DNA from: a virus
IMG/VR virus record: IMGVR_UViG_3300048919_000561
Span: 1-36,338 of that record
DNA: 36,338 nucleotides
Strand: one strand, 5' to 3'
In this document: one piece after another, positions 5,192 through 25,515 of the stretch
Position numbering within the stretch: the stretch's first letter is position 1
Layout of the letters: each line of letters begins with the position of its first letter
Notes under the pieces: generated by a model
What the model was told of the DNA's origin: nothing
Databases searched by the model: none
What the model saw: the letters and a program-made list of their open reading frames with translations, nothing else
Position numbers and translations under genes: made by a program

Positions 5192-5409
5192 CGGGTGCCT
5201 CGATTTTCTTGCCGGTAGGGGCAAATATGGTCCTCGATGGTTGTTCTGTACACCCCAAGGATACTAGGGCGAGTATAGTTAACGCGCATTAACAGTTTCT
5301 TGTCGCCAGACCCCGCACATCCGCTCTAAGACGCGTCTTGCGGCTCGATCCAGTTAAATAGTTTAGCAGAACTCGCATGATCGATGGGTTCATAACAGGC
5401 AGACCCATT

Positions 5410-5805
5410 ATGTTCGAAAGCTTCGCAGCGCTCCTTACCGCAATAGGTATCAATCCCGCCCACTTCTTCGCTGGCCTTGCCGGTGCAATCGTTCGTATCG
5501 CGATCCAGGGCAAAAAGTTTACATTTGAGGTTGTCAGCGGCGCATTCGCCGGGTCGCTTTGCGCGTGCTACTTAGCCCCGCTGGTCGCACGTTGGATGCA
5601 CTTGGACCCCATTGATGCAGCCGCAAATGGCGGGCTCGCATTTGTATTGGGGATGGTCGGCATCTCAATTGCCGAAGGTCTTGTTCGCGCCGCGCAGCGA
5701 TGGGCACTCAATCCTAAAATCCCCCGTGTAGGTGTTCTCGCAGATGCTCGCGATGCGCTGGATATGTCCGAGCTGAAGGACAAGAAATCCGACAAGGACG
5801 AATAA
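5410..5805 (+). CDS. Putative holin, 131 aa
   Basis: Three or four hydrophobic segments (about residues 3-20, 37-60 and 70-96) are linked by short polar turns and end in a strongly charged Lys/Asp/Glu tail (MSELKDKKSDKDE), the layout of phage holins that form membrane lesions to release endolysin. ATG 5410 has AGGCAG 7 nt upstream and is preferred over 5377. The gene ends with TAA that is part of a TAAATAC element. Context beside the endolysin supports the call, but sequence alone does not prove it. Confidence 0.6.
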   Translation: MFESFAALLTAIGINPAHFFAGLAGAIVRIAIQGKKFTFEVVSGAFAGSLCACYLAPLVARWMHLDPIDAAANGGLAFVLGMVGISIAEGLVRAAQRWALNPKIPRVGVLADARDALDMSELKDKKSDKDE

Positions 5806-6278: not shown

Positions 6279-6598
6279 TGCCGTATACGATGTTTGTCGA
6301 AGTCGATTCCTACGAGGTGCGTCAAGGCGTTTGGCAATTGCTGTTCAACGACACTTACGACCTAACCCCGCTTACCTACGCCGATAACGAAAACAGTGAA
6401 GTCCATGGTCGGACGATCACAGGCCAGCAGCACTTGAACGCGGCTGTCGTAAGCCTGCTCCTTTATGGGAAACTCGCTGGCTATAACTGGACGAATGTTC
6501 TGAATGTGCAGACCGGCAAGACATGCGGGGCTGAAGTCGAATTCGCCACAAAAGCCGACGCCATGTTGTTTAAACTTGCCTGTGGAGCCTCGCACTGA
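6278..6598 (+). CDS. Hypothetical protein, 106 aa, paralogous C-terminus to its neighbour
   Basis: ATG 6278 overlaps the upstream stop (TGATG). The protein is soluble with mixed composition and ends VEFATKADAMLFKLACGASH, closely resembling the end of the 147-aa protein upstream. This F-x-x-x-x-[DE]-A-[ML]-x-F-K-L pattern is common at the C-termini of small phage proteins of unknown role. It is the last gene before the accessory block. Confidence 0.6.
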   Translation: MPYTMFVEVDSYEVRQGVWQLLFNDTYDLTPLTYADNENSEVHGRTITGQQHLNAAVVSLLLYGKLAGYNWTNVLNVQTGKTCGAEVEFATKADAMLFKLACGASH

Positions 6599-6669
6599 AT
6601 AGTTGCGTTTCCTAATGCGACACGCAACTGTAAATCAACGGGGACGAAGCATGTGGGAGCGGTTTAGCA

Positions 6670-7833
6670 GTGTCGTTCAGAAAGAAAACAACCTTTGTAA
6701 TCGGAGCAGGAGCCAGTGCCGAGTTCGGCCTACCGGTTGGAACAGGACTTGCGGCGGAGATTAAAAAGTCGGCGCTTCTGACCGATTCCAACGGCTCCGA
6801 CACAACACAACGAGCCTTGCTAGGGATTCTGGAAGCAAAGTTCCCCTTGGTACCTGATCGAGATCGGCAGTCACAAGCGCTGTTCGACATTCACGACGGC
6901 ATCCACACGGCGGTTAGCATCGACGCGTTTATCCATCGACACAGCCGCGATAGGAACATCGAATATTGGGGCAAAGTGCTGATTGCGCTTGAAGTGTTGA
7001 AGGCAGAACGCAATTCTTCGCTGGCGGAGGGGCATTGGGACGAATTCTCCAGCGATCCCAATGCAGTTATCGAAATTGGTGATAAAAAGCTGAAGAACCC
7101 CGACTACACTTGGATCGGCGCGTTTTTTAGAACGTTATCCGACGGCGTGCTCAATTATCGGGACTTGGGAAAAGATGTAACCATCATCTGCTTCAACTAC
7201 GATCGTTGCATTGAGGTGTACCTTGCTGAAACTATCGCCGACGCATACCGGGTCCATATCGAAGACGCCTTAAAGGTGGTTGAGACCAACTTCCACATCA
7301 TTCATCCGTATGGATACCTTGGAAAACTTCACGTTCGTCCAGGGGCACAGGGTCGAGGCAGATTATCTTTTGGCTATGTCCTGAGTGATGAAGGTGGCGA
7401 GATAGATGCAATTGCGGAAAACATTCACACCTACACCGAGCAAGCGCACGATTACGACAAGGTCAAAGAAATTCACACTGCTATGTCCGAGTGCACGAAC
7501 TTGGTCTTTCTGGGTTTCGGGTTCAACAACCAGAACCTCAATTTGTTAAGAGTGAAAAAGGCGTTTCATGATGTGGATACAACAAAGAACGTGTACGCAA
7601 CCGGCTTTGGTTTATACAAGCAGATAGAAGGCACCTTAAAACGGCGGATCATGGACTTGTTTCTCGATAGGGATAAACACAAGTTCTGGCGCCAGGACAT
7701 CAACATTGAGTTCGGTGTTGGGTGCGAAGAGTTGTTTAAAATTCATGACATGAATCTATCCTCATTCAGTCAGTCTTACATTTCTTACGACCGTGGCGAG
7801 TTGCAGCATCATCATGTCAGCGGAGATGACTGA
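6670..7833 (+). CDS. SIR2-like domain protein, candidate defence NADase
   Basis: A Rossmann-type SIR2-like domain is visible: GAGAS at residues 12-16 for NAD binding, Asn176 in CFNYD as the catalytic Asn position, His212 in IIHPYGYLG as the catalytic His region, and LGFGFNN at 281-287 near the domain end. Defence-associated SIR2 proteins deplete NAD+ on phage sensing and abort infection. GTG at 6670 follows GGGAG. The remaining C-terminal ~90 residues are unassigned and may be the sensor. No partner such as Argonaute or HerA is adjacent, and the downstream membrane gene is separated by a hairpin. Confidence 0.75.
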   Translation: MSFRKKTTFVIGAGASAEFGLPVGTGLAAEIKKSALLTDSNGSDTTQRALLGILEAKFPLVPDRDRQSQALFDIHDGIHTAVSIDAFIHRHSRDRNIEYWGKVLIALEVLKAERNSSLAEGHWDEFSSDPNAVIEIGDKKLKNPDYTWIGAFFRTLSDGVLNYRDLGKDVTIICFNYDRCIEVYLAETIADAYRVHIEDALKVVETNFHIIHPYGYLGKLHVRPGAQGRGRLSFGYVLSDEGGEIDAIAENIHTYTEQAHDYDKVKEIHTAMSECTNLVFLGFGFNNQNLNLLRVKKAFHDVDTTKNVYATGFGLYKQIEGTLKRRIMDLFLDRDKHKFWRQDINIEFGVGCEELFKIHDMNLSSFSQSYISYDRGELQHHHVSGDD

Positions 7834-7878
7834 GATCAGCGGGGGTTCGCTGAAAAACGCTAGCGCCTCATCACTTTC

Positions 7879-7932
7879 GACTCCACATAATTGGCGCGGT
7901 GTTAGCCAGCAAGATCGCATCGGCGCTGGCTA
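7879..7932. repeat. 22-bp repeat copy 1 and hairpin after the SIR2-like gene
   Basis: The 22 bp at 7879-7900 match 18 of 22 with a second copy at 8748-8769 after the next gene, differing only by transitions. An 8-bp hairpin (TAGCCAGC 7903-7910 with GCTGGCTA 7925-7932) follows. The hairpin could end the SIR2-like transcript. An AGATCAGCG block also precedes both copies (7833 and 8720). Confidence 0.5.
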
Positions 7933-7957
7933 TTGGACCACGACTTAAGGAAACGTC

Positions 7958-8716
7958 ATGTGGGCTAGACTGACTAAATTCTTCGCGGAAAATGTAGTAG
8001 CTTCCGCTGTTTCATTTACGTTGCTGTATCTGTGGCTCCTGGTGTTTTTACACGGCAGCGCATTCACAAGTCCCGGAAATATGGCCGACGAAATCAAGCT
8101 AAACATTATCGGAGATAGTGTGGGCGGTCTCACCGCACCTTTAGCTTTGATCTGGCTGATTGCGGCGGTGATATCTCAACGACAAGAGTTGAACCTGACA
8201 AAGAGTGAGCTGGAAAAGACCGCCGACGCGATGAATAAGCAAGTCCAGTTGATGAGGGAGCAATCTGAGTTGCAGCGAGCAGTTGCTAGCGCTAACGTTC
8301 AAATGACTTGGTTCCCAGAGAGATTTGCGCTGTACCACTACTTTAAGACTGTCAGCAGCGGTTTGTTTGACGGCTTATCGTATGAAAAATTGAGAGACCT
8401 CGATTCTCACATAAACAAGGTTCGCTTTGTATACGGACCTGAAGTCTTCGCGCAGGGCAAAGATTTTTTTGCCTTGGCGAAATCGATGCGTTTGAACGTG
8501 GACTTTTATGAGAACGTGATAGGTGGTTTTCCACCGATTGATGAAGATGGCAACTTTTCAGTTTCCTTCCATAATGAAGAGATGGAGGCCCGGGCGAACG
8601 AAATCCTTGGACAGTTGCATGAATTATCGAGCGCGCTCACTAATGGGAAATTCATTAGTGCGCTTGAAAGGGCATTAGACTTAGAGGAGCAGGCCGTCGT
8701 CAGCGACACAAGCTGA
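7958..8716 (+). CDS. Two-TM coiled-coil membrane protein, 252 aa
   Basis: ATG 7958 has AAGGAAA 5 nt upstream. Hydrophobic segments at about residues 13-33 and 50-72 are followed by a coiled coil (about 75-110) and a mixed cytoplasmic domain of about 140 residues with no recognised family. The gene is bracketed by diverged copies of the same intergenic sequence, which suggests it came in as a cassette. Membrane-anchored proteins with this layout occur in phage superinfection exclusion and defence loci, but no function is shown by the sequence. Confidence 0.65.
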   Translation: MWARLTKFFAENVVASAVSFTLLYLWLLVFLHGSAFTSPGNMADEIKLNIIGDSVGGLTAPLALIWLIAAVISQRQELNLTKSELEKTADAMNKQVQLMREQSELQRAVASANVQMTWFPERFALYHYFKTVSSGLFDGLSYEKLRDLDSHINKVRFVYGPEVFAQGKDFFALAKSMRLNVDFYENVIGGFPPIDEDGNFSVSFHNEEMEARANEILGQLHELSSALTNGKFISALERALDLEEQAVVSDTS

Positions 8717-8747
8717 TTAAGATCAGCGATAGATCAACGAAACCGTG

Positions 8748-8769
8748 GACTTCATATAATTGGCACGAT
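8748..8769. repeat. 22-bp repeat copy 2 after the membrane protein gene
   Basis: This copy matches 7879-7900 at 18 of 22 positions; all four differences are transitions. It contains CATATAAT, a fair -10-like hexamer, but no -35 box is visible. Confidence 0.5.
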
Positions 8770-8834
8770 ATCGCCCAGCTCGCTCGTAATGGCTCGGATA
8801 ATCCAGCGGGCCGCTATTCTTAGCCTTCGGCATC

Positions 8835-8873
8835 AAAGGGCAACCGAAAAGATCGCTCGCCCTTTTGTTTTTT
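8835..8873 (+). terminator. Terminator-like hairpin with T tract
   Basis: AAAGGGC (8835-8841) pairs with GCCCTTT (8859-8865) across a 17-nt loop, followed by TGTTTTTT. A second possible stem, CCGAAAA (8844-8850) with TTTTCGG (8870-8876), cannot form at the same time as a simple nested structure. It lies just upstream of the serine recombinase gene. Confidence 0.5.
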
Positions 8874-8900
8874 CGGCAGCAGACATTCGACAGTAATCCA

Positions 8901-9554
8901 ATGTCAGAGGCTGCAATGCAACCAACACAACCACAACAGTTTGTCGCGTACTATCGCGTTTCCACCGCCAAGCAGGGTGCAGATGGATTGGGCATCGAAG
9001 CGCAACGAGCAGCCGTTAAAGCGTTCGCACAAGGCAACGTGATAGCGGAGTTTACAGAGGTCGAGAGCGGCGGAAAGAACAATCGCCCGCAGATCGCCAT
9101 GGCACTCGATTACGCCCGTCAACATAAAGCTACGCTGCTCATTGCCAAGATGGACCGGCTGTCGCGCAATAGCGCTTTCATCAACAATCTGTTGGAAGCA
9201 GGCGTTGACTTCCTCGCAGTCGATCAACCACACGCCACTCCATTGACGATCCGAATACTCGCTGCTGTCGCACAAGAGGAACGGGAGCAGATCAGCAAGC
9301 GGGTGAAGGCGGCGCTGGCTGTTGCTAAAGAGCGGGGTGTCAAATTAGGCGGCGCTCATCACTCCAAACAGGACAAAGCCGACACCTTTGCGGAATCGCT
9401 TCAGGAAGTCCTTCAGACGCTCATAGACAGCGGCACCGACACTCCGGCAGCAATTGCTAAGGCGCTTAACGAACGCGCTATACGGACGCCACGTGGTGCC
9501 GCTTGGGGAACTGGTCAAGTGGTGCGGCTGCTGCGAAGAACAGGGAAGGGATAA
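8901..9554 (+). CDS. Small serine recombinase (resolvase/invertase family)
   Basis: Catalyses strand exchange through a 5'-phosphoserine link. The N-terminal catalytic signature YYRVSTAKQ gives the nucleophilic Ser at about residue 21; further motifs are MDRLSRN and EREQISKR before helix E. Residues ~165-217 hold a short DNA-binding part including an ALNERAIRTPRG segment, as in Din/resolvase-like proteins. The upstream in-frame TTG at 8865 lies in the terminator; ATG 8901 is chosen, with 8916 (AGAGG 5 nt upstream) as alternative. It is distinct from the large recombinase at the right end and may mobilise part of the accessory block. Confidence 0.82.
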   Translation: MSEAAMQPTQPQQFVAYYRVSTAKQGADGLGIEAQRAAVKAFAQGNVIAEFTEVESGGKNNRPQIAMALDYARQHKATLLIAKMDRLSRNSAFINNLLEAGVDFLAVDQPHATPLTIRILAAVAQEEREQISKRVKAALAVAKERGVKLGGAHHSKQDKADTFAESLQEVLQTLIDSGTDTPAAIAKALNERAIRTPRGAAWGTGQVVRLLRRTGKG

Positions 9555-9679
9555 CGGTGCACCACCCCCTATGGCACCTTTACAATCACTAATAGATGCT
9601 ACACCAATTTTGATGTTTCGGTGAAAGCGTGGCACGACTTGAAGCCGGAAGACCTATAGCGTCGAGGATGATGGTGCCG

Positions 9680-10609
9680 ATGGCAATCGTAGATATTTTC
9701 TCAAAGAGGCAGAACCGAGCACGAGGCGAAGTAAACGACACGTACCAATACGACGTGATGACGAAGACGCTGCGTGTAAAACTGTTTTATGCGATCCAAG
9801 ATGGAATGGGTACGTATGACCGGTACAGAGCCAACCTACACGTGCGGAGTGTTTACACTGAAATAGTAGAAATTCTGAGACGCGAGTATGGCGTGAAAGA
9901 TTTGGGTGCCTATGGCACCGGTGGAATGTTTTCCGAACTGGAGTATTTTTTTACGAATACCGGGGATGTTGAGCGCGCCCTTGATGTACTTGAACTCTGT
10001 TGTAAGGCCATTGACGAAGAGTATAGATCAAAAAACTATCTAAATTTAACAAATCATACTGATAAAATCGACGAGGTGCTCGAGGAAATAAACTTCAGGA
10101 TGCGAGAGCATGGCTTCGGATTTCAATATGTGAGCGGTGAAATCGTACGTGTAGATTCAGAGCTTATACACTCTGAGGTTGTTAAGCCTGTACTTCGGCT
10201 CTTGAATGGTCCTGAATATGCTGGGCCTCAAGAAGAATATCTTTCTGCACATCAGCACTATCGCCATGGCAGCAACAAAGAGGCACTCGTCGATTGCCTA
10301 AAGGCGTTTGAAAGCACAATGAAGGCCATTTGCGACAAACGCGGATGGGGCCGCGACGCCAACGCAACAGCCAGTCAGCTGATTAAGTTGCTCTTCGAAA
10401 AGGAACTCGTTCCTGTATTCTGGCAGACTCAAATGAACGCGCTAAAGAGCAGCCTTGAGAGTGCGGTCCCGACAGGAAGAAACAAGTTGGCGGGGCACGG
10501 GCAGGGAAGTGAACCCACGCAGGTGCCGCCCTATTTGGTGGGCTACATGCTCCATATGACAGCAGCGACGATCTTATTTCTCGTCGAAGCAGAGGCTGCA
10601 TTCCCCTGA
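9680..10609 (+). CDS. STM4504/CBY_0614-type protein with HEPN RNase-like motif
   Basis: The N-terminus (MAIVDIFSKRQNRARGEVND, then TYQYD) matches what I know of the STM4504/CBY_0614 family, so ATG 9680 is preferred over 9629 or 9671. Residues ~185-305 resemble the abortive-infection C-terminal HEPN-type domain: Arg267 and His273 form the R-x5-H pattern of HEPN ribonucleases (GRNKLAGHGQG). HEPN proteins usually cut RNA to stop growth during infection. It has no obvious antitoxin partner; the facing minus-strand membrane protein is the nearest neighbour. The defence role is inference from family. Confidence 0.7.
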   Translation: MAIVDIFSKRQNRARGEVNDTYQYDVMTKTLRVKLFYAIQDGMGTYDRYRANLHVRSVYTEIVEILRREYGVKDLGAYGTGGMFSELEYFFTNTGDVERALDVLELCCKAIDEEYRSKNYLNLTNHTDKIDEVLEEINFRMREHGFGFQYVSGEIVRVDSELIHSEVVKPVLRLLNGPEYAGPQEEYLSAHQHYRHGSNKEALVDCLKAFESTMKAICDKRGWGRDANATASQLIKLLFEKELVPVFWQTQMNALKSSLESAVPTGRNKLAGHGQGSEPTQVPPYLVGYMLHMTAATILFLVEAEAAFP

Positions 10610-10712
10610 ATGGTGGTACTGAACGTTGAATGAGCCAACGATGCGACCAAGGAAGCCCAAACAAATGGTGCCACTTGGAGAGGAATGGGAACGGCTCAGA
10701 TTGTAAGGTTGC

Positions 10713-11300
10713 TCACTCGGGTTGGTCTGCGACAGTTGGAGTGATCGCAGAGTTGGGTGACTTCGCGTTTTCACATTGCAAGCGCAGTAACTCATCTTGG
10801 TACCGCTGATGCTTGAAGTACCATGACGTGAGCCCCAATGACGCAATGGCTGCCCCTATTAGGTAGAAGTAGCGGAAGAGTGAAACATCGTTGGAGAGTT
10901 TTTTCAAAAGGACTTGAAGTTTGACCTCCTGCGTCTTTGTCTCGGAGGCAGTTTTAAGAAACTCTGTTCGTTTCAATTGCACTTCAGCGAGCGTCTTCTG
11001 TGTTTCTTCATACGCTTCAATCGCCATTTGAGAACGGTTTCGGTCATTAATGTTCTCCGGCTTCTTTGCCTCATCTAAAAGTTCATTTGTCCTGTTAACC
11101 TGCTGGTCCAACATATCAGTCGCGCGAGATACAACGTCGGCGTCGCGGTCGAAATTGTAAGACGACTGTGCGTAAGCAATCTCTCCTTGCCCTAACTGCT
11201 CAGTAATATCTCGGCTGACCCAAATAGAGAAAGCCATGATAAAGACGCCGCCAAGGGTCATAAACTTGTAGAGATTGTCTGTCGGTAACTGAGGGATCAT
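10713..11300 (-). CDS. Two-TM protein with long coiled coil, 195 aa
   Basis: ATG 11300 has GGAG about 8 nt upstream. A hydrophobic segment at about residues 14-30 is followed by a charged, Gln/Glu/Lys-rich coiled coil of about 100 residues, a second membrane segment at about 144-160 and a short basic tail. The topology places the coiled coil on one side of the membrane as a loop. I recognise no family. It converges on the HEPN-like gene, with about 100 bp between the two ends. Confidence 0.65.
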   Translation of the reverse strand: MIPQLPTDNLYKFMTLGGVFIMAFSIWVSRDITEQLGQGEIAYAQSSYNFDRDADVVSRATDMLDQQVNRTNELLDEAKKPENINDRNRSQMAIEAYEETQKTLAEVQLKRTEFLKTASETKTQEVKLQVLLKKLSNDVSLFRYFYLIGAAIASLGLTSWYFKHQRYQDELLRLQCENAKSPNSAITPTVADQPE

Positions 11301-11403
11301 TTATCTGCTCTCCCTGAGCAATCTTCGGTTGTCCTGATTCTCCAAAGGCTATTGATAAGAGAGCACGGCAGCAACGGTGCTGCTGGTGCAAAGGACTTAT
11401 ACA

Positions 11404-11796
11404 ATGGCAAACGCACTAGAAACCCTGAAGGCAGCAGCAACGACCGGTCATGTTGGTGGTCAGAACCCAGTAGATATCTTCTACGCAAAAATACAGACAC
11501 AGATCGACTACGCTGGTCAGATCAAGGACGGCAAGGCGATCAACACGCGGTCGCTATGGTTCCGAAAAGACGGCGCTGGCTACGTCGTGCGGATCGGCCG
11601 GAATGCTTTCGAGATCGCCGATAGCAAACTGTTCCGCGCTGCTGATCTTGATGGTGTGGCGACGATCCTGAACGCTGCAAAGGAAGCCATTCAAGCGGAC
11701 AAGAAACTGCAAGACGCCATCGCGATCCATTCCATGGAGCGGAGCGAGCGCTTGAAGGTTGGTCGTGCGAAGGGCAAGGCCGCTAAGCAGAAGTAA
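11404..11796 (+). CDS. Hypothetical protein, 130 aa
   Basis: ATG 11404 has AAAGGA 8 nt upstream; the longer reading from 11377 lacks a site. The protein is soluble, with a central segment that looks like mixed beta strands (NTRSLWFRKDGAGYVVRIGR) and a Lys/Arg-rich C-terminus that could bind nucleic acid. No family is recognised. A good intrinsic terminator follows 28 bp after the stop, so it is a single-gene unit, divergent from the coiled-coil gene at 11300. Confidence 0.65.
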   Translation: MANALETLKAAATTGHVGGQNPVDIFYAKIQTQIDYAGQIKDGKAINTRSLWFRKDGAGYVVRIGRNAFEIADSKLFRAADLDGVATILNAAKEAIQADKKLQDAIAIHSMERSERLKVGRAKGKAAKQK

Positions 11797-11824
11797 TCAA
11801 CAAGTCCGCTTGCGCAATCGGACG

Positions 11825-11848
11825 AAGCCCGCTGGAAACGGCGGGCTT
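11825..11848 (+). terminator. Intrinsic terminator-like hairpin
   Basis: AAGCCCGC and GCGGGCTT form an 8-bp stem with an 8-nt loop, followed by a short TCC. It lies 28 bp after the stop of the 11404 gene and fits its transcript end, although the T run is short. Confidence 0.65.
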
Positions 11849-11966
11849 TCCATGTCCTCAACACCCCAGGCACTATAGCAGCGCCCGCGCATCAGAGGGT
11901 CCTCAGGAGCGCCGTCCGCGCGTTTCTAAGCGTTCAGCGCATCAGCCGCAGCGCAACGGCAAGAAT

Positions 11967-12023
11967 GCGCTGTATGAGCCTCCAAAGGCTGGCCTTCTAC
12001 TCGGATTTTTAATGCACCACCGG
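11967..12023. repeat. 57-bp direct repeat, copy A
   Basis: The copy at 12827-12882 shares an identical 26-bp core (11967-11992 here) and the 12-bp end ATGCACCACCGG. The core holds a small hairpin, AGCCT-CCAA-AGGCT. It lies downstream of the minus-strand gene ending at 12089. Read on the minus strand, both copies can encode QPLEAHTA, so it may be a fragment of an old coding sequence. Confidence 0.6.
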
Positions 12024-12088
12024 CAGTCGCCACTACAAACTCACACGTACGTCTGCCTGCTGATGCAATTTTTATAATCGTCCAAAAA

Positions 12089-12415
12089 CTATTGCTGGCT
12101 TGTGTCTTTGCCATCCAACAACTCATTGAACAATCGCTGTGTTTCCTCGGGAGAGCTTTCACGCTGCTTTGGTGCAGCGGCAGGCGGCACTTTGCGCTCC
12201 GCCCTAAACTGCTCAAACGATCTCTCACCCCATGGGGAGCAGATCGGTTCATCAACGAAGTTCGTGGATCGACAAACGCTTAGTTTGCCACTTGCCGTAT
12301 CAATCCGCATCACTCGGTCACGCTCGGTGGTGATCGCATATCTGGGCGCGGTGAGCCAAATGCTGCCAGCGACAAGAACTCCAGTGATGGTGATTGCGAG
12401 GGCTATCTGGTTCAT
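12089..12415 (-). CDS. Membrane-anchored protein, 108 aa
   Basis: An N-terminal hydrophobic segment (MNQIALAITITGVLVAGSIWL) is a signal anchor or uncleaved signal. The rest is polar, with two Cys (about residues 48 and 59) that could pair outside the membrane and a Pro/Ala/Gln/Glu-rich tail. I recognise no domain. It stands alone on the minus strand between the 57-bp repeat (copy A) and the inverted-repeat element at 12561. Confidence 0.6.
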   Translation of the reverse strand: MNQIALAITITGVLVAGSIWLTAPRYAITTERDRVMRIDTASGKLSVCRSTNFVDEPICSPWGERSFEQFRAERKVPPAAAPKQRESSPEETQRLFNELLDGKDTSQQ

Positions 12416-12560
12416 TCAGTGGGTTTACCAAGTAATCATTCTCAAAGCATGAATTCCTCTGCCAACGCTCGTCCGTCGGGTTACCTTTTCCATGCCGCCG
12501 TTTTATCGGCTAGCGAGGAAATTTTATAGCTTTTTTGCAAGCCGTATGGTAGGTTAAGCT

Positions 12561-12802
12561 GTGTTTTTAGCCCAACATTCGGGCTCCAAATATCTTCGCT
12601 TCTCTCGACCGGTTTTATCTTTCCCGCAATCCTAGCCGCAGTTGGATACTGCACCCTTTCTTACCTCTCGACCTCAAAGGAGAACGCCATGACCCCAAAT
12701 AAGACCAAGGACTTTTTTCGTCACGCCTATATCGGCACGTTGAATGCGTTCTGTGGAATTTTTGCATCGGTCGCAGCAAGCGGAATTTTGGGCTAAAAAC
12801 AC
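12561..12802. repeat. 242-bp element bounded by 20-bp inverted repeats
   Basis: The left end, GTGTTTTTAGCCCAACATTC (12561-12580), and the right end (12783-12802) are inverted copies matching at 19 of 20 positions. The element carries one small ORF with a strong ribosome-binding site. Possible explanations are a MITE-like insertion or an RNA whose ends fold back on each other. A CT dinucleotide flanks both ends, which is too short to prove a target duplication. Confidence 0.6.
12689..12796 (+). CDS. Hydrophobic small peptide, 35 aa
   Basis: ATG 12689 has AAAGGAG 6 nt upstream, one of the best ribosome-binding sites in the window. The product begins MTPNKTKDFFRHAYIGTLNA and ends with a hydrophobic stretch (about residues 15-35), so it would insert in the membrane. 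The stop codon lies inside the right inverted repeat of the surrounding 242-bp element. Size, hydrophobicity and fold-back ends resemble type I toxin genes, but no antisense RNA is demonstrated and no known family is recognised. Confidence 0.5.
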   Translation: MTPNKTKDFFRHAYIGTLNAFCGIFASVAASGILG

Positions 12803-12826
12803 CTCTCACCTTCGGGTCGGACCGCC

Positions 12827-12882
12827 GCGCTGTATGAGCCTCCAAAGGCTGGCTATCTACTCGGTCCTTTATGCACCACCGG
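12827..12882. repeat. 57-bp direct repeat, copy B
   Basis: This is the second copy of the repeat at 11967-12023. The stop codon of the minus-strand zinc-ribbon gene (12853) lies within it. Confidence 0.6.
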
Positions 12883-13116
12883 CTTCCACACAATCTGTTG
12901 CGGCTGTCTGTCAAATCCATAGGGTTCCAGGTAGAGCTCGCACGTGCCGGGGTCGCATTGCGTGCATCGGAACTTGACCGTGCGATAGTCCTTGAACTTG
13001 CCCAGGTGGCTTGAGAGATCGTGCGCGAATGCCTTGGCAGTCCGACCGCATTGTTTGCAGCGACCAACTACCATCATGCGACGACTAGCAGCATATCCAA
13101 GGGTTCTATCCGGCAT
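12853..13116 (-). CDS. Small zinc-ribbon-like protein, 87 aa
   Basis: Two cysteine pairs, CKQCG at about residues 20-24 and CTQCDPGTC at about 51-59, are spaced about 30 residues apart and can bind one zinc ion in a ribbon fold. The rest is basic and may contact nucleic acid or protein. ATG 13116 is the only clear start; the ribosome-binding site is weak. The C-terminal residues are encoded by the direct repeat copy B, so the end of the gene may have been altered by that element. The function is unknown. Confidence 0.6.
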   Translation of the reverse strand: MPDRTLGYAASRRMMVVGRCKQCGRTAKAFAHDLSSHLGKFKDYRTVKFRCTQCDPGTCELYLEPYGFDRQPQQIVWKPVVHKGPSR

Positions 13117-13247
13117 GGCTCACGATAGAACATATCAGGAACATCGCGCAAGCGGTGCGTGGTCCCAGGGGATGACAGTGCACTGGTTTTATGAACTAGT
13201 AGCCTAAACTTCAGCCGATGCTAGAACGTTTTGCATAAGGGTGTTTG

Positions 13248-14093
13248 ATGCCGATGTTTTACTCTCCACCGCAGACGGTTCGAGAACGGGAATATCTCTA
13301 CATTGACGGTGGATGCCTGAGGGCCACCATCAAAAGCATGAGCAAGGAACTTTTCGGAGATGAAAATTGCTATCAGCCTCTCGTAAAGGCGTTGGCGAGT
13401 GGGGGGTATGACAAGATTTACTATTACGATGCTGTTCCGGGTCGGGATCACGGCGAGAACGAAGCTGCATATGAGCTCCGCGTCCAACCAGATCACGAAA
13501 GGTTTGCGAAAATTCAGGCACTGGATCGCGTCCATGTGGCATTGGGGCGACTGCAGGGACCGAACAAGCGCCAAAAAGGCGTCGATGTCAGATTAGCCGT
13601 AGATATGATGACACACGCCTTCCGTGGACATGTTTCGAAGGCCACGCTTTTTGCGGGGGACTCCGATTTCGTACCGCTTATAAAAGCGTTGGTGGGGGAG
13701 GGTATGCACGTCACTCTATGGCACCCGCCTCAAGCAAACGCTGAACTAAAGGGCGCTGCTGATACGACACGACTGTTCAATTTCAAGGCAGATTATGGCG
13801 CTTTTTCACAAGATGGCGCGGAGGCGGCTTTCCAAAATCGCGGCTCCTGGCATGGAGCCATGCCACCGGATGGCCCGGGGGTGGAGAATTGTATGCGGGT
13901 TGGAAACGTGTTTTTCGTAGGAACGTGGTCTAACTCTGAACTCAATATTTGGCGTAGCGAGGATACCGAGAGTTGGTCGTCCATTAGCTTGTTTGTTCCT
14001 GGCGCCGATCTAAGTAGAGCCACTGCGGCGTTCGAATTTATCTATGGTTGGGGAATATTCCCAGATGGCGAGAAATCGATCGTTTGTGGCTGA
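13248..14093 (+). CDS. NYN-domain protein (LabA/DUF88-like RNase candidate) with C-terminal extension
   Basis: Residues ~15-165 form a PIN-like NYN domain, a metal-dependent ribonuclease fold. The acidic active-site positions are visible: Asp20 in YIDGG, Asp113 and Asp119 in KGVDVRLAVDM, and Asp138/Asp140 in AGDSDF. The last ~85 residues are extra, Trp-rich and read like one or two beta-propeller-type blades (FFVGTWSNSELNIWRSEDTE), which is unusual for this family. ATG 13248 has AAGGGTG upstream. The gene stands alone and ends before a strong hairpin. NYN proteins occur in RNA turnover and in defence loci; the role here is open. Confidence 0.72.
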   Translation: MPMFYSPPQTVREREYLYIDGGCLRATIKSMSKELFGDENCYQPLVKALASGGYDKIYYYDAVPGRDHGENEAAYELRVQPDHERFAKIQALDRVHVALGRLQGPNKRQKGVDVRLAVDMMTHAFRGHVSKATLFAGDSDFVPLIKALVGEGMHVTLWHPPQANAELKGAADTTRLFNFKADYGAFSQDGAEAAFQNRGSWHGAMPPDGPGVENCMRVGNVFFVGTWSNSELNIWRSEDTESWSSISLFVPGADLSRATAAFEFIYGWGIFPDGEKSIVCG

Positions 14094-14114
14094 AGAACGG
14101 TCAATATCGCGTAA

Positions 14115-14134
14115 GGCCCGGATTGCTCCGGGCC
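14115..14134 (+). terminator. Hairpin after the NYN gene
   Basis: GGCCCGG and CCGGGCC form a perfect 7-bp GC stem with a 6-nt loop, 21 bp after the NYN stop. No T tract follows, so efficiency is uncertain. The minus-strand gene ending at 14190 could use it too. Confidence 0.5.
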
Positions 14135-14189
14135 ATCACCTCAATAGTATTTCAGTTGAACATCGCGCTTGATCACGGCGGCAGACGGT

Positions 14190-14639
14190 TTAGACGATGA
14201 TATCGCGGTCCTGAAAATTCTTCACGAATGCGGCGGCACCCTCAGGCGTGTCAAAACCCACAACGGTGTAATAACTGAATTTCGAAACTGCACCATCCGC
14301 TTCAGCGTTTCCTACCATAACGTCCGTCGCCAGTGTCGCTTCACTCATGACTTCGTCTTGGTTCGCACCGGTTGCCGCATCCAGACACGACGCCCAATAG
14401 TCGGCACCGATCTCCGAAATGTCGTAAGCGAGCAGGTGCTTCGTCTGAGCCGCCAGGATCAACGTTTGGAATTCGCGCAAATTCTCTGAACGCTCCTCTG
14501 GCGAAAGGTCCAGTACGACGTAAAGTTCATCAGCACGACAACGAACGTGGCCGCACAGGTTGGGAAGCTCCTCAATGCTCTTGAGCGCTGTTGCGAAAGC
14601 AGAGCCCGGATCGACGGGCGTGCGAAAATAGTATGCCAA
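14190..14639 (-). CDS. Hypothetical protein, 149 aa
   Basis: The frame opens with TTG at 14639 (reading LAYYFRTPVD) with AAGGA about 8 nt upstream; no in-frame ATG lies near the N-terminus. The product is soluble and acidic, with Cys at about residues 29 and 34, and a C-terminal part (SYYTVVGFDTPEGAAAFVKN) that looks like a ferredoxin-like alpha/beta end. I recognise no family. It follows the 14723-14998 gene in the same direction, 83 bp downstream. Confidence 0.55.
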   Translation of the reverse strand: MAYYFRTPVDPGSAFATALKSIEELPNLCGHVRCRADELYVVLDLSPEERSENLREFQTLILAAQTKHLLAYDISEIGADYWASCLDAATGANQDEVMSEATLATDVMVGNAEADGAVSKFSYYTVVGFDTPEGAAAFVKNFQDRDIIV

Positions 14640-14722
14640 GATATAATCCTTCTTTTGATGGCTTTAAAAACGGGAAAAGTTTCGGTGAGGTGATGCGTGG
14701 ACAAATCCAGGCATCCTCATAG

Positions 14723-14998
14723 TCAGGGTTTCGGGTTTTGCAGCTTCCACAGCATTAGGTCGATGCTTGGATCGGCGTGCCAAGCCATGAGCGCCAGCCA
14801 GTAGTAATTGCGTTCCGCCATGCAGTTTGCCATCGCATCCTCATCCGCTTTGATGGTGGCATTCCATTTGACCGGATCGATACCGCCGGGACCATTCAGC
14901 GAGCGCAACTTCTCCTGGCTTTCTTCTGTGATGCGCAAGACTTCGACGCTTGCATCGAGGTACTTCCTCAGCACCGTTTCCACGGGTGTGTTGTTCAT
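14723..14998 (-). CDS. Hypothetical helical protein, 91 aa
   Basis: ATG 14998 lies after a purine-rich stretch (GGAGAAAGAAAAAG). The product is predicted all-helical, with a conserved-looking MANCMAERNYYWLALMAW segment at about residues 55-72. I recognise no family. It lies between the HNH-accessory-like gene upstream and the 149-aa gene downstream on the same strand, and may share a transcript with both. Confidence 0.55.
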   Translation of the reverse strand: MNNTPVETVLRKYLDASVEVLRITEESQEKLRSLNGPGGIDPVKWNATIKADEDAMANCMAERNYYWLALMAWHADPSIDLMLWKLQNPKP

Positions 14999-15149
14999 TT
15001 CTTTTTCTTTCTCCAGTACGGCGGTCGCACGGGTGCTGCCACTCGTTGAGCCTTTGGCGTTTCCGCTAGGGGTTTAAACACATCGTTGCTCTCTGATCGG
15101 AACTCAGCGAGATAGTCGGGCCAGCAGCAAGCCAGCCCGCAGATGTAGA

Positions 15150-15896
15150 TCACTGAAGGTCGCGATAGGTTTCACCGTTACGAATTTGGCTGATTGTTCT
15201 TCGGGTGACGCCGTATAGGTTCATTAATTGTAACTCTGTCATCGGGGCGTTACGGATGTGCTTGATCTGCATTTCGGTGAACAAACGGCGGAGTTTGGCG
15301 CTAGAGCCCGCCTCAGTTGAGTTCAACTTAAGCCATCGGAAATTGTCCGGGCCAAACGGTTTCTTTGCATCAATACGACGGAGCACCGTATACTCCTGAT
15401 AAGGTCCTTCACGGAGGACATCGTGGTAGAACGAATCGAAGTCATACCAAGCATCGACCATTATCGCGCCAGTCGTACGAGTAACCTTGCTCAGCTTCAA
15501 CCAATGCCGATACACGGGACGAACGACCGGATCGTGAACGTTAACCTTGTGCCGCTGCGGCGCTTTGCGCTCAACATCGCCAGTCTCAACAACCAACGGC
15601 TTATCAGCGACAAAATCAGGTGCGCCGCAACTTGCGCCGGTTACGCGTCTCTTACGCCAACGCCCTTTTTGACTTACGATGTACGAGACGCCGCGTTCGA
15701 ACTGCATCGGGTTGCCACGAGCATCGACAGCTATGGGATAGAGAAATTTGCCGTTTGGCATTTCCATCATTAGGCCATATCCGTGCGATAACACGTCTGA
15801 CTGAATGGCGCTTGGTGCAGCGGGGACTTCGTTTGAACGGACGTATCCTAGGCAAGCGGCCAGATGGTCTAGGATGGAAGAAAGCAGTCTTAACAT
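15150..15896 (-). CDS. Phage HNH-accessory-like protein with C-terminal HTH, 248 aa
   Basis: ATG 15896 has GGAGC 6 nt upstream. Residues ~150-190 carry the pattern W-x-x-F-x-x-F-x-D ... RRID ... FGPDNFRW that flanks or replaces HNH nuclease cores in many phage mobile-nuclease proteins. Residues ~205-243 (MTELQLMNLYGVTRRTISQI) are a helix-turn-helix of the kind found at the end of those proteins. The classical HNH His/Asn residues are not evident, so nuclease activity is doubtful. The N-terminal ~120 residues are unassigned. It may be a free-standing DNA-binding relative of homing nucleases. Confidence 0.6.
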   Translation of the reverse strand: MLRLLSSILDHLAACLGYVRSNEVPAAPSAIQSDVLSHGYGLMMEMPNGKFLYPIAVDARGNPMQFERGVSYIVSQKGRWRKRRVTGASCGAPDFVADKPLVVETGDVERKAPQRHKVNVHDPVVRPVYRHWLKLSKVTRTTGAIMVDAWYDFDSFYHDVLREGPYQEYTVLRRIDAKKPFGPDNFRWLKLNSTEAGSSAKLRRLFTEMQIKHIRNAPMTELQLMNLYGVTRRTISQIRNGETYRDLQ

Positions 15897-15962
15897 TTAT
15901 TGCTCCATGCGTGATGATTCGCCGGGCGAATATGCCGCTGGCGCAACTCGGTCTGATTGAGT

Positions 15963-15990
15963 TGGTGACCGTTAGAGGCATCGAACCTCG
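15963..15990 (-). other. tRNA 3'-end-like sequence (T arm, acceptor strand, CCA)
   Basis: On the minus strand CGAGG-TTCGATG-CCTCT reads as a T arm (four of five stem pairs), followed by seven acceptor bases, A and CCA at exactly tRNA spacing. No matching 5' acceptor strand, D arm or canonical anticodon loop is found upstream. It therefore looks like a tRNA 3' fragment, as left by or carried for site-specific integration, rather than a complete tRNA. Confidence 0.4.
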
Positions 15991-16105
15991 TGAAGCGCCC
16001 TATACGCACAGTCTTGACGACGGCATGGAGATGCGTCGCTGAGGCGTTATTAGCCGCACTTATCCGAAGCTGCAATATAAAATTAGTTGAATTGGTGAAT
16101 TATGG

Positions 16106-16495
16106 TTAACCTTGGCGAGTTTCCGCGCCGATTACTTGCGCATTAGCTGGCGTTACATCGACGATCTGTGCCTGCAGCGATTTGCGTGCGCGGGCTGCAT
16201 CCGCGAGGATATCGGCCATATGTGTGACCTGCACATCAACGTCGACCTTTTGCGCAGCCTTGCTAACAAACGGTGCTAGAAACATGTCGGTTGCTTTTAA
16301 CCGCACCATTTCATTCGTGCTGTTCATCATCAAGTCATATGCGACCTGGACCGCTTCAAGTGTTTTCGCCTGCAACGCTTGCTTGATTTCGTCGGGTACT
16401 GGTGGTCTGCCTTTCGGGTTGCCGCTCTGCCCCGGCTTAAATTTCTTTCTTTCCAGGGTCGCCTTTTGTGCTTCGCTAAGTACTCGTTTCGCCAT
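16106..16495 (-). CDS. DUF5681-like protein, small terminase candidate, 129 aa
   Basis: The N-terminal KKFKPGQSGNPKGRPPVPDE is the hallmark of DUF5681-type phage proteins, commonly encoded beside the large terminase and proposed as DNA-recognition subunits. The rest is helical with a possible coiled coil (residues ~90-115). ATG 16495 has GGAGG 5 nt upstream and overlaps the previous stop (TAATG). Unusually, it lies on the strand opposite TerL, with its operon diverging from the late operon at about 16.8 kb. Confidence 0.6.
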   Translation of the reverse strand: MAKRVLSEAQKATLERKKFKPGQSGNPKGRPPVPDEIKQALQAKTLEAVQVAYDLMMNSTNEMVRLKATDMFLAPFVSKAAQKVDVDVQVTHMADILADAARARKSLQAQIVDVTPANAQVIGAETRQG

Positions 16496-16761
16496 TAGTC
16501 CTCCATCTCGTGTCCGCCGAGCAGCGCGAGAAACTTTCGGCCATCGTCGTCGTAGGTAAAGTTGATCGTGAAGGATTTCGGGCTTGTCTGCTCGAATGTG
16601 TAATCGCGTCCGATTTCAGCCGTGATCCACGCGCCGAACCGTTTCTCGATCCACTGCGCAGTTGCTTCATCCGCTAGAATGCCGGGATTTATCTTGAGGT
16701 ATTCGGTAAGACCGTTCTCGCCGCGCTTATGGCCCTCTGCGATTTCATATTGAATTTTCAT
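16495..16761 (-). CDS. Hypothetical protein, 88 aa, first gene of the divergent pair
   Basis: ATG 16761 has GGAG 8 nt upstream and a TAAATA element 21 nt further up. The protein is soluble; its end (INFTYDDDGRKFLALLGGHEMED) loosely resembles the C-terminal motif of the 5835 and 6278 gene products. The stop overlaps the start of the DUF5681-like gene, so the two are coupled. The function is unknown. Confidence 0.6.
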   Translation of the reverse strand: MKIQYEIAEGHKRGENGLTEYLKINPGILADEATAQWIEKRFGAWITAEIGRDYTFEQTSPKSFTINFTYDDDGRKFLALLGGHEMED

Positions 16762-16782
16762 GGGTGTTCTCCGTGCTGTCCA

Positions 16783-16788
16783 TATTTA
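16783..16788 (-). promoter_or_regulatory. TAAATA element, leftward, in the divergent region
   Basis: CTAAATATGG reads on the minus strand 21 nt before the 16761 start. Together with the rightward copy at 16830 it forms a divergent pair about 40 bp apart. TAGCCGGAC is repeated at 16787 and 16834. Promoter function is inferred. Confidence 0.4.
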
Positions 16789-16829
16789 GCCGGACGGAGG
16801 GTTTGAGCGCTCAAAATGCGAGGTGAAAA

Positions 16830-16854
16830 TAAATAGCCGGACTTAAACAGCCGG
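16830..16854 (+). promoter_or_regulatory. TAAATA element, rightward, before TerL
   Basis: TAAATAG (16830-16836) lies 29 nt before the TerL start. CCGG at 16837 and 16851 could pair in the leader. It is the likely transcription start region of the late operon. Confidence 0.4.
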
Positions 16855-16864
16855 TAGAAAATTT

Positions 16865-18286
16865 ATGAACCTCAACAAAGAGGAACAGAAGCAATTTGCG
16901 GAGCTGCTACAGCAGTTTCACCAAGACATCGAATTCTTCGCGATCACGCTATTCGGGCATGATAATGCGCTTCGCCCCAAGCAGATCGAGTTCTGCAACG
17001 CCTTCCGCAATTACAAGCGCATCACCTTCAAAGGCGGCGTCGGCTTCGGCAAGACGCGAGCGCTTGCAATCCTTGTTTGGTGGAGCCTCTTCACGCACGA
17101 TCAGGTGCAGGTCACGATCTTTGGACCTAACGAAGGTCAGATCAAGTCGGGTATCTGGAAGGAACTGCAAATCCTTCACGCCAAGATGCACCCCATCTGG
17201 AAAGACCTGTGGGACGTAACTGCGACGCGCATTCAACGAACTAAAAACTCTGCTGATTGCTTTGCCGAGTTTCGCCTTGCCAACAAGGACAACGTTTCAT
17301 CCGCACGCGGTATTCACCAGATCAACAATTTCGTTTTCGTTGACGAAGCCACAGGCGTTCCAGACGAAATTTACACGGAAGCGCTCGTAAACGTGCTTCG
17401 CGATCCCAACGGCAAATTGTGCCTGATCTCCAACCCATCAACCACGAGCGGCTACTTCTGGGAGACATGGAACGGCAACATCGCGCCGATGTGGGCGAAG
17501 GTGCATGGTCGAATGACCGACGCGCCGCATGTCACGGAAGAAGATCTCAAAGCCGCTGAAATCGAGTACGGCGGCAAGTTCTCCCGCGAGTATCGCATCC
17601 TCGTCCTTGGCGAGTTTCCGTTGAGCGACACAGACGGTCTTATCCCTCGCAATCTCGTTGAGCAGGCCATCGAAAACGAAGCCGCTGTACCGTCGGATCG
17701 TCTGCCGATCATATGGGGCCTTGATCCGGCTGAAGGTGGCGACCGCAGCGTTTTAGTCATCCGACACGACAACCAGGTTCTCGCAGTACACTCGTGGCGC
17801 GGTCTGGAAACCAAGCAACTTGCGATGAAAGTCCGTGATCTCTTCCAGGCCACTCCAAAACAGCAGCGCCCTTTGGCGATCTGCGTTGACGCTATCGGTA
17901 TCGGCAATGGTGTTTGGAGCGACCTCCAATACATGGGCCTGCCGGCGAAAAAGGTTATCGTTTCGTCAAGCCCCACGCGCCGCGCCGACTTTTACAGTCG
18001 TTTGCGTGATCAGCTTTGGTGGGAGTGCAAGGAGTGGTTCGCGACTGAAAACGTCTGCATTCCAAACAACGAAGACCTAGTGAAAGAATTGCTGCTGCCG
18101 AATTACGAGAGCGACAGCGGTAAGATCAAAGTCGAGAAGAAGTCGGACATGAAGAAGCGTTTCAAGGGCGTTTCTCCTGACCACGCAGACGCGCTTTGCC
18201 TGACCTTCGCGATCAGCCCGACGAGATACGCCAGCAAGTACGAATGGCGACCAGACGTGGAAATTGACCTTCGCCAGTACGAGTGA
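16865..18286 (+). CDS. Terminase large subunit (TerL), DNA-packaging motor
   Basis: ATP-driven packaging motor and headful or site-specific nuclease. The ATPase has Walker A GGVGFGKT (residues 57-64) and Walker B FVFVDEA with Asp160 and Glu161. The RNase H-like nuclease has Asp287 (GLDPAEGG), Asp342 (CVDAIG) and Asp439/Asp442 (PDHAD). At 473 aa it has typical length and both domains intact. It opens the plus-strand late operon, followed by the portal gene. The ribosome-binding site is weak (GGTAG), and a TAAATA element and a possible small hairpin sit in the leader. Confidence 0.93.
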   Translation: MNLNKEEQKQFAELLQQFHQDIEFFAITLFGHDNALRPKQIEFCNAFRNYKRITFKGGVGFGKTRALAILVWWSLFTHDQVQVTIFGPNEGQIKSGIWKELQILHAKMHPIWKDLWDVTATRIQRTKNSADCFAEFRLANKDNVSSARGIHQINNFVFVDEATGVPDEIYTEALVNVLRDPNGKLCLISNPSTTSGYFWETWNGNIAPMWAKVHGRMTDAPHVTEEDLKAAEIEYGGKFSREYRILVLGEFPLSDTDGLIPRNLVEQAIENEAAVPSDRLPIIWGLDPAEGGDRSVLVIRHDNQVLAVHSWRGLETKQLAMKVRDLFQATPKQQRPLAICVDAIGIGNGVWSDLQYMGLPAKKVIVSSSPTRRADFYSRLRDQLWWECKEWFATENVCIPNNEDLVKELLLPNYESDSGKIKVEKKSDMKKRFKGVSPDHADALCLTFAISPTRYASKYEWRPDVEIDLRQYE

Positions 18287-18304
18287 CGGAAACGCACCTC
18301 GCAA

Positions 18305-18352
18305 TAAATACGGGACAATCAATAAAAATAAGAACGACGGGTCGCACCGTCG
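18305..18352 (+). promoter_or_regulatory. TAAATAC element plus hairpin before the portal gene
   Basis: TAAATAC at 18305-18311 is followed by a 6-bp hairpin (CGACGG 18335-18340 with CCGTCG 18347-18352) and then AAAGG and the ATG at 18364. It lies just after the TerL stop, which argues for the portal start at 18364 and not at 18283. Confidence 0.4.
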
Positions 18353-18363
18353 CGAAAGGCCCG

Positions 18364-20607: not shown

Positions 20608-20617
20608 GGAGTAAACA

Positions 20618-20872
20618 GTGAACCAAGAAATCATCGCACGCGGGCGAAATGCGAAGCGCGTGCTGGACATGCCGGAATTTCAGATGCTCACGGATGAGGT
20701 GCGAACAGAAATATTCGACCGCTTCCGCAAGACTAACGTGGTGGATCGTGAAGAGCGCGAAGAGATACACCGCATCATGTACGCGTGCGACCTGTTTATC
20801 GCCCGCCTGGAAAAGTATGTCGCGCAAGCAGAGACAGAGATTGCGGTGTCATCGCATGAGAACGATGCATAA
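20618..20872 (+). CDS. Small helical protein between portal and scaffold, 84 aa
   Basis: GTG 20618 has AAGGAG 8 nt upstream. The product is all-helical, charged, with EREEIHRIMYACDLFIARLEKYV in the middle. Small proteins in this position occur in many podoviruses and may act in head assembly, but I do not recognise this one. It is co-transcribed with the portal gene (10-bp gap). Confidence 0.65.
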   Translation: MNQEIIARGRNAKRVLDMPEFQMLTDEVRTEIFDRFRKTNVVDREEREEIHRIMYACDLFIARLEKYVAQAETEIAVSSHENDA

Positions 20873-20891
20873 GAGCATCAAGAACAACGTT

Positions 20892-20927
20892 CCTCAGTAA
20901 ATACGTTATCACTAACAATTACTGAGG
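20892..20927 (+). promoter_or_regulatory. TAAATAC element inside a 9-bp RBS-burying hairpin
   Basis: CCTCAGTAA (20892-20900) and TTACTGAGG (20919-20927) form a perfect 9-bp stem. The TAAATAC element starts in the 5' arm, and the GAGG ribosome-binding site of the scaffold gene (start 20934) lies in the 3' arm. Folding would block translation of the scaffold gene. Confidence 0.5.
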
Positions 20928-20933
20928 TAATTC

Positions 20934-21998: not shown

Positions 21999-22014
21999 TA
22001 AGGAGAAGCCAATA

Positions 22015-22947: not shown

Positions 22948-22956
22948 GACATCAAG

Positions 22957-22981
22957 TGAGGGGCGATAAGCCCCTCATTTT
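22957..22981 (+). terminator. Intrinsic terminator after the capsid gene
   Basis: TGAGGGGC and GCCCCTCA form a perfect 8-bp stem with a GATAA loop, followed by TTTT. Its place after the major capsid gene, ahead of the neck genes, would lower expression of the latter. Confidence 0.8.
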
Positions 22982-22982
22982 C

Positions 22983-23015
22983 ATCGCCAATAACAATAAT
23001 AAGAAACGAGGCGAT
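22983..23015 (+). promoter_or_regulatory. Leader hairpin burying the RBS of the 23018 gene
   Basis: ATCGCC (22983-22988) pairs with GGCGAT (23010-23015) around an A/T-rich loop. The GAGG site before the TTG start at 23018 overlaps the 3' arm. The 20 nt at 22987-23006 match 19 of 20 with 32079-32098 before the tail fibre gene. Confidence 0.45.
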
Positions 23016-23017
23016 CT

Positions 23018-23383
23018 TTGGAATTCCGAGACCTATTTGAAATTTTTGGCGACCGCACTGTTGGAGAAATTATCCCAGAAGGCACCAGTCGCGTTATGTA
23101 CTCCAACGGTCAAGTGACCGAGATCTGGCACAACGAAGGGGCGCACATTCGCAGAGAGCGTTTGCATCACACTTTCGCAGCAGTGATGGAAGCGAACAAG
23201 GAAGCTGCGAAGGATTACTCCAGAACCGGCGGTATCAAGAACAACACTCAAGTCGCAGCAATCCCGGCGACCGTCTATGCTGAACTGCAAGCCAGCGGCA
23301 TCACCGATGATGCGAGCGATTTCAAGAAGTGGCTCAACGATTCAGATAATGCTTGGGTCCGCACAAACGATCTGAGGGTCTGA
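23018..23383 (+). CDS. Small head/neck protein, 121 aa, TTG start
   Basis: TTG 23018 has GAGG 7 nt upstream, and the next ATG would remove a quarter of the protein, so TTG is chosen. The product is soluble and helical in its second half (residues ~45-75 and 88-112). It lies between capsid and adaptor genes, so a head-completion role is likely, but no family is recognised. It ends 2 nt before the adaptor start. Confidence 0.65.
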   Translation: MEFRDLFEIFGDRTVGEIIPEGTSRVMYSNGQVTEIWHNEGAHIRRERLHHTFAAVMEANKEAAKDYSRTGGIKNNTQVAAIPATVYAELQASGITDDASDFKKWLNDSDNAWVRTNDLRV

Positions 23384-23385
23384 CG

Positions 23386-25511: not shown

Positions 25512-25515
25512 ATAC
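25509..25515 (+). promoter_or_regulatory. TAAATAC element before the small tail gene
   Basis: TAAATAC includes the stop codon of the nozzle gene and lies 21 nt before the GTG start at 25536. CCG and CGG flank it. Confidence 0.35.

Follow-up and report, generated by a model that had tools for sequence, protein, structure and literature searches.

A locus between the holin-like and terminase genes of virus record IMGVR_UViG_3300048919_000561, a linear sequence of 36,338 bases analyzed over its whole length (the window), is probably a prophage defence or cargo hotspot of a temperate Rhizobiaceae-type phage, with slot contents that turn over faster than the phage core. The hotspot is framed by a conserved gene for a small serine recombinase (REC) and a conserved gene for a 139-amino acid (aa) protein. 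The data behind this assignment are the position of the locus, the turnover of its cargo, the families and folds of the encoded proteins, their intact catalytic residues, and the survival of cargo genes on a plasmid where the phage genes have decayed.

Two cargo slots between conserved phage genes

The comparison set consisted of the window and 18 related phage or prophage loci (19 loci). A TerL search yielded L002 (99%), L003 (97%), L004 (92%), L005 and L007 (67-68%), and L008 (59%); REC and SIR2 searches added L087, L088, L091, L097, and L164; bacterial genomes added G303 and G064; and a pattern search with the left site described below added L218 and L220-L223. Conserved DNA was recovered by blastn at 8748-9614 (recombinase), 11319-11989 (139-aa gene), 12046-13152, and 14130-15013, and no match was obtained for 6579-8748, 9614-11320, 13152-14130 (the NYN gene, missing in L003), or 15013-16017. 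Over 12 kb of structural genes (16017-28283) the window matches L002 at 96% identity, whereas the two are wholly different at 6579-8748 and 9614-11320, with a REC gene between these two stretches that is 92% identical. REC, the 139-aa gene, and the holin-side genes are kept in relatives, leaving a small locus bounded by conserved phage genes. Slot A (∼6.6-8.75 kb) lies to the left of REC, and slot B (9.55-11.32 kb) runs from REC to the right site.

Features of the locus in the window (position, strand, description):
5377..5805, +, holin-like gene (phrog_2359 holin, 7e-11), the left conserved anchor, kept in L003, L007, L084, L164, and L201
6275..6598, +, 107-aa phage gene left of slot A (blastn 92% to L003; homologues in L084, L164, and G303)
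6670..7833, +, SIR2-like protein, 387 aa, slot A; from motifs and fold, a predicted NAD+-consuming abortive-infection effector
7958..8716, +, 252-aa protein, slot A; two N-terminal hydrophobic segments, then a coiled cytosolic part
8749..8779, +, conserved boundary element ACTTCATATAATTGGCACGATATCGCCCAGC, upstream of REC
8837..8848, +, left R site AGGGCAACCGAA, 12 nt
8865..9554, +, REC, small serine recombinase of resolvase/invertase type; the actual start is probably 8901 or 8916
9629..10609, +, STM4504/CBY_0614 family protein (STM4504), 326-aa open reading frame (ORF), slot B; AbiJ_NTD4 plus C-terminal HEPN; likely start 9680
10670..10726, +, REC 3'-end relic, reading GTAQIVRLLTRVG (nhmmer 12.4 bits, E 0.011, against 6.0 bits for the best reversed control)
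10713..11300, -, 195-aa membrane/coiled-coil protein, slot B; relatives in L003 (29%), pAtC58 (32%), and G303 (36%)
11324..11335, -, right R site in inverted orientation, reading AGGACAACCGAA on the minus strand
11377..11796, +, conserved phage gene for the 139-aa protein, anchoring slot B on its right and kept across related loci
16865-18286, TerL, right-hand neighbour of the interval

An earlier note on this DNA had proposed a phage-carried defence island inserted between lysis and packaging genes. That placement holds for the holin (5377-5805) and TerL (16865-18286), and comparison of related phages showed the interval to be a variable hotspot containing known and candidate defence families; relatives do not keep this set of genes, and they form a group of temperate phages. 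The single island of that proposal has to be replaced by at least two separate slots flanking the recombinase, which belongs to the conserved phage frame rather than to the accessory set, and a tie of NYN to defence, or of the membrane proteins to SIR2 or STM4504, was not supported.

Contents of slot B:
Window: STM4504 and the 195-aa membrane protein
L002: a 324-aa protein (PD-(D/E)xK nuclease-like by eye, no Pfam match) and Abi_alpha
L003: a 198-aa relative of the 195-aa protein
L004: a 591-aa AAA ATPase, PtuA-like
L088: STM4504 (45%) and a 237-aa membrane protein
L164: a product of 204 aa
G303: a relative of the 195-aa protein
G064: a 241-aa protein with a HEPN-like RNKRFAH motif and a relative (70%) of the L002 nuclease-like protein
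L218: a 261-aa membrane protein
L221: a TIR-like protein, 391 aa
L005, L007, L091, L220, L222: empty, the REC stop lying ≤18 bp from the right site or overlapping it
L008, L087, L097: 143-314 bp only
L223: small ORFs; right site not found

Contents of slot A:
SIR2: window, L005, L007, L088, L164, G064
HNH-type proteins: L003, L091, L218, L222
L008: AbiTii and HEPN-like proteins
L164: a TIR-like protein adjoining SIR2
L087: a protein matching SieB below threshold (E 0.001)
L223: a PDC-S32-like protein

Cargo of the relatives matched Abi_alpha (3e-23), AbiTii (9e-38), a PtuA/AAA-type ATPase (3e-25), and a TIR-like effector (3e-9), and two of the recurring families were those of the window, STM4504 (at 45%) and SIR2 (at 42-49%). 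A protein of 200-250 aa with N-terminal hydrophobic segments often directly precedes REC; those of the window, L002, L003, and L004 align, G303 holds a relative, and the corresponding proteins of L087 and L088 are of like build and unrelated.

A decayed copy of the locus is found on plasmid At of Agrobacterium fabrum C58 (pAtC58, L169), where the order is the end of the 107-aa gene, SIR2 (64% identical to the window protein), a 253-aa membrane protein, a REC 3' end, an Mrr-type nuclease, a 180-aa membrane protein (minus strand), a degraded right site, and a second REC 3' end. Only fragments of REC and the 107-aa gene are left in this copy, and the SIR2, 253-aa, 180-aa, and Mrr-type genes are intact. 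The SIR2 gene at 64% was present on ten A. fabrum plasmids in the collection, apparently of one lineage. Retention of the cargo fits selection for it by the host; this is a single case, and chance survival may also account for it.

Structural and packaging genes of the window specify TerL, portal, scaffold, major head protein, virion and ejection proteins, and a tail fibre, and a large serine integrase at the right end marks the phage as temperate. The closest annotated relatives of the portal are those of short-tailed phages of alphaproteobacteria and others (∼25-28% identity), and a megablast search with the left 14.5 kb of the window against phages gave no result. Related prophages reside in two bacterial genomes (G303 and G064) of the family of a "Rhizobiaceae group" metagenome-assembled genome; the former shares 78-80% with the window in REC, 49% in TerL, and 46% in the portal, and the latter 61-64% in TerL and 34-38% in SIR2. 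On account of these prophages and the Agrobacterium plasmid relic, the hosts are probably Rhizobiaceae.

Predicted effectors and neighbouring genes

The SIR2-like, STM4504/CBY_0614, and NYN proteins named in the earlier note were present as described, as were the serine recombinase (PF00239), the 252-aa and 195-aa membrane proteins, and a 45-nt direct repeat at 11967/12827. The SIR2-like protein possesses the motifs GAGAS (residues 13-17), CFNYD (174-178), and HPYG (212-215), and residues N176, D178, and H212 were invariant across five homologues, so that the Asn176/His212 pair singled out in the earlier note is intact. Sequence models scored the protein weakly (Pfam SIR2_2, PF13289, E 0.0055; PADLOC SIR2, 6e-7). 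Its AlphaFold model (predicted local distance difference test score of 73) was best matched by PsSIR2 of SIR2/HerA (8w9l; Z 15.0 over 250 residues, root-mean-square deviation 4.1 (VIA)), with further matches to ThsA (Z 13.9) and DSR2 (Z 13.2). The fold and the catalytic Asn/His are shared with the solved defence sirtuins (SIR2 of SIR2/HerA, ThsA, DSR2, and KomC), but the window protein is only 12-15% identical to these, comprises ∼390 aa, and stands alone, without HerA, ThsB, or a sensor domain. We rejected its membership in SIR2-HerA because its neighbours are the 252-aa protein and REC, with no adjacent ATPase. Searches with SIR2 of phages and of PDB sequences gave no result, and no close relatives were found among viral contigs.

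The STM4504 protein of slot B scored well above threshold for its family (NF046078, 341.3 bits versus a cut-off of 150) and matched AbiJ_NTD4 (5e-20) and DUF7014 (3e-38). Its R-x5-H motif corresponds to R284/H290 of the 326-aa ORF, which are the R267/H273 of the earlier note if translation starts at Met18 (9680), and the motif is conserved in L088 and L168. In a structure model of middling confidence the C-terminal half has the HEPN fold: the top 20 matches were all HEPN-type (Z 13.5 to 8.0), with the sacsin HEPN domain best (Z 13.5) and the best unrelated fold at Z 7.5. Proteins with AbiJ-NTD4 and HEPN have been described as the STM4504/CBY_0614 family, and HEPN proteins that carry Rx4-6H cleave RNA (Anantharaman et al. 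2013, PMC3710099). The window protein has AbiJ_NTD4, the C-terminal HEPN fold, and R-x5-H in common with these proteins, whereas it sits in a phage slot and shows 46-51% to the nearest homologues seen. No close relatives were found among viral contigs, a PDB sequence search gave no result, and a literature search found no paper that tests the STM4504/AbiJ-NTD4 family. Both STM4504 and SIR2 are present in L088, and AbiJ_NTD4 directly precedes SIR2 in the separate phage L168, a co-occurrence that is worth testing.

The earlier note had suggested that the membrane proteins might be undescribed parts of the island. The 252-aa family was also found in L002, L003, L004, pAtC58, G303, and G343, and it adjoins SIR2 on pAtC58 and in genome G343 as well; its profile gave no result against viral contigs. 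Because both membrane families also occur in relatives with neither SIR2 nor STM4504, they are recurrent hotspot members rather than proven system parts. One multi-gene system (SIR2 plus the 252-aa protein, or STM4504 plus the 195-aa protein) was accordingly rejected as proven, the membrane families being found without effectors in L002, L003, L004, and G303.

A shorter SIR2 clade (∼345 aa) was observed at L168:1311-5079, L202:8254-11527, and L204 (reverse complement) 7016-8709. A conserved ∼220-aa protein comes next, overlapping or almost so, and the pair looks like an undescribed SIR2 operon. The AbiJ_NTD4 protein of L168 stands directly before this SIR2; on the other side of the pair, L202 has a TIR-like protein and a relative of the 252-aa membrane protein.

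Further variable or repeated features lie to the right of the 139-aa gene:
11967..12024, +, first of two direct repeats, with a spacing of 860 bp
12827..12884, +, second of the direct repeats, 89% identical to the first
13245..14093, +, NYN-domain protein, 282 aa, variable (PF01936, 7e-15)
15150..15896, -, HNH-type protein (phrog_3377, 1.2e-5), replaced in L002 and L003

The NYN protein exceeded the PF01936 cut-off (56.2 versus 24.2 bits), PADLOC matches were weak (HEC-09, 2e-6; NYN, 1e-4), and a search in phages gave no result; the gene was found only in the window and its nearest relative, L002, and is absent from L003. The case for it as an immune effector is weak. By eye, the C-terminal 60 residues (13900-14093) resemble an Asp-box (BNR-like) repeat fragment, which may reflect fusion of the NYN gene to part of another gene. 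In L003 one repeat copy matches both window copies and the intervening stretch is missing, as if deleted by recombination between direct repeats.

The HNH-type gene belongs to a further variable stretch (15013-16017) ahead of TerS/TerL, and two homing-endonuclease-like genes (phrog_314, minus strand) occupy 1706-2998 at the left end of the window. L005 and L007 have a complete flagellin gene of bacterial type (299 aa, identified by eye; L005:7830-8729, L007:8208-9107) between the accessory interval and TerS/TerL, for which no match was found in the phage collection. Just upstream of TerL, L087:11582-11776 (29%) and L008:9488-9913 (by eye) encode a protein resembling the 139-aa product, possibly a second copy of this conserved phage protein. 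The major head protein (22015-22947) is only 43% identical to that at L003:15127-16044, though TerL is at 97%; the structural genes are strongly mosaic.

The recombinase, the inverted sites around it, and possible routes of turnover

REC matched PF00239 (1.7e-26) and phrog_125 (DNA invertase, 1.7e-31) and is conserved in all related loci. Together with slot B it is bracketed by the inverted 12-nt R sites, the left motif lying ∼106 bp before the REC catalytic domain and the inverted copy ∼54 bp before the 139-aa gene. With ≤1 mismatch, the left site was present in 15/19 loci and the right site in 14/19 (fixed 50-nt and 40-nt search windows), compared to a rate of 0.0001-0.0002 in random windows of unrelated phage loci. 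Since the 19 loci are related, these counts are inflated and do not represent independent trials; more weight attaches to the resemblance, in inverted orientation, of the left and right sites of a single genome, which in the window reaches to GATYGCTC.

The REC 3' relic lies between STM4504 and the 195-aa gene, precisely where L003 and G303 have REC adjoining a 195-aa homologue, which suggests that STM4504 came with an incoming REC and that the tail of the resident REC was left behind. A diverged copy of the boundary element (7 mismatches in 31) was also noticed at 7880-7910, between SIR2 and the 252-aa gene; it is perhaps an older cargo border or a promoter.

It is evenly balanced in our estimation whether the R sites serve REC and the 139-aa gene as operators or transcription signals, with turnover arising only by ordinary homologous recombination between co-infecting phages. 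The sites are ∼50-110 bp upstream of two genes that both point rightward, long conserved flanks provide homology, and the relic fits replacement of the resident REC by an incoming REC plus STM4504; however, the sites have opposite orientations at the two genes, and slot B ends at the REC stop and the right site rather than at random points. It is unlikely that REC itself drives the slot by acting on the inverted R sites or its own 3' end to move, invert, or capture cargo. Consistent with such action, the inverted sites recur at a constant spacing from REC and the 139-aa gene far above the random-window rate, the 11 viral contigs carrying the extended left site all (11/11) have REC just downstream, empty slots join the REC stop to the right site, and duplicated REC 3' tails are found at cargo borders, once in the window and twice on pAtC58. 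Yet REC has the same orientation in 19/19 loci, slot A is outside the bracket, the left site in several loci shares sequence with a terminator-like hairpin (AAAGGGC...GCCCTTT and a run of T), and ∼70 other recombinase loci lacked a clear excess of brackets; kinship of the 19 loci also inflates the site counts. The more specific proposal, that REC is a dedicated loader capturing interchangeable immune cassettes through the R sites or its own 3' end and leaving the duplicated tails as insertion scars, is more doubtful still; if true, REC would amount to a device that shuffles phage-borne immunity in a site-specific way.

An invertible segment was rejected, the REC bracket never being reversed in the 19 loci, and a general rule of inverted-repeat brackets around such recombinases was unsupported by the ∼70 other loci. 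PinQ of cryptic prophage Qin, also a small serine recombinase, has a proposed phage-resistance role through DNA inversion (PMC12529663). PinQ inverts a tail-fibre segment, whereas the bracket described here contains immune-type genes and no inversion was seen.

Predicted protection of lysogens and relation to known hotspots

SIR2 effectors destroy NAD+. As a defence hotspot, the locus would equip the lysogen with two independent abortive-infection effectors, and the cargo would be made as single-gene units. When a second phage infects, a trigger would activate SIR2, with destruction of NAD+, or the HEPN protein, with cleavage of RNA; the cell would then halt growth or die before the invader multiplies, and the lysogen population and its prophage would be protected. 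Expression, enzyme activity, trigger, and protection by the effectors are predictions from the properties of the locus. Several points weigh against a defence role. The interval has no excess of sigma-70 promoters, which leaves expression of the cargo in the lysogen unsupported; SIR2 falls below the Pfam PF13289 (SIR2_2) cut-off (17.2 versus 24.5 bits); a large part of the relatives' cargo is without a recognised family; and NYN and HNH genes occur in phages for other reasons too. Still, it is improbable that the cargo provides lysogenic-conversion or phage-growth functions (competition, regulation, or counter-defence) and not host protection, for although many cargo proteins are of unknown family and NYN and HNH genes are common in phages, distinct abortive-infection families recur in the same slots and cargo is kept on pAtC58 without the phage.

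Hotspots of this kind are already known from other phages, and we found no description for the present phage group. Prophage-encoded hotspots protect lysogens (2022, PMC9122126); these are likewise small, high-turnover loci between conserved phage genes and hold SIR2, TIR, HEPN, ATPase, and nuclease systems. The hotspot of the window differs in belonging to a short-tailed Rhizobiaceae-type phage group, in its position between holin and terminase, in its small serine recombinase anchor with inverted sites, in having at least two slots, and in that the defence role of its cargo is predicted.

The probable hotspot described here would add a defence locus in phages of plant-associated bacteria, where such loci are little described. 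REC, the R sites, and the 139-aa gene are simple DNA handles for locating more cargo in short contigs, and the immune candidates indicated are the SIR2 proteins, the 252-aa and 195-aa membrane families, and the HEPN-like and nuclease pairs. The inverted-site bracket makes the mode by which these phages swap immune genes directly testable.

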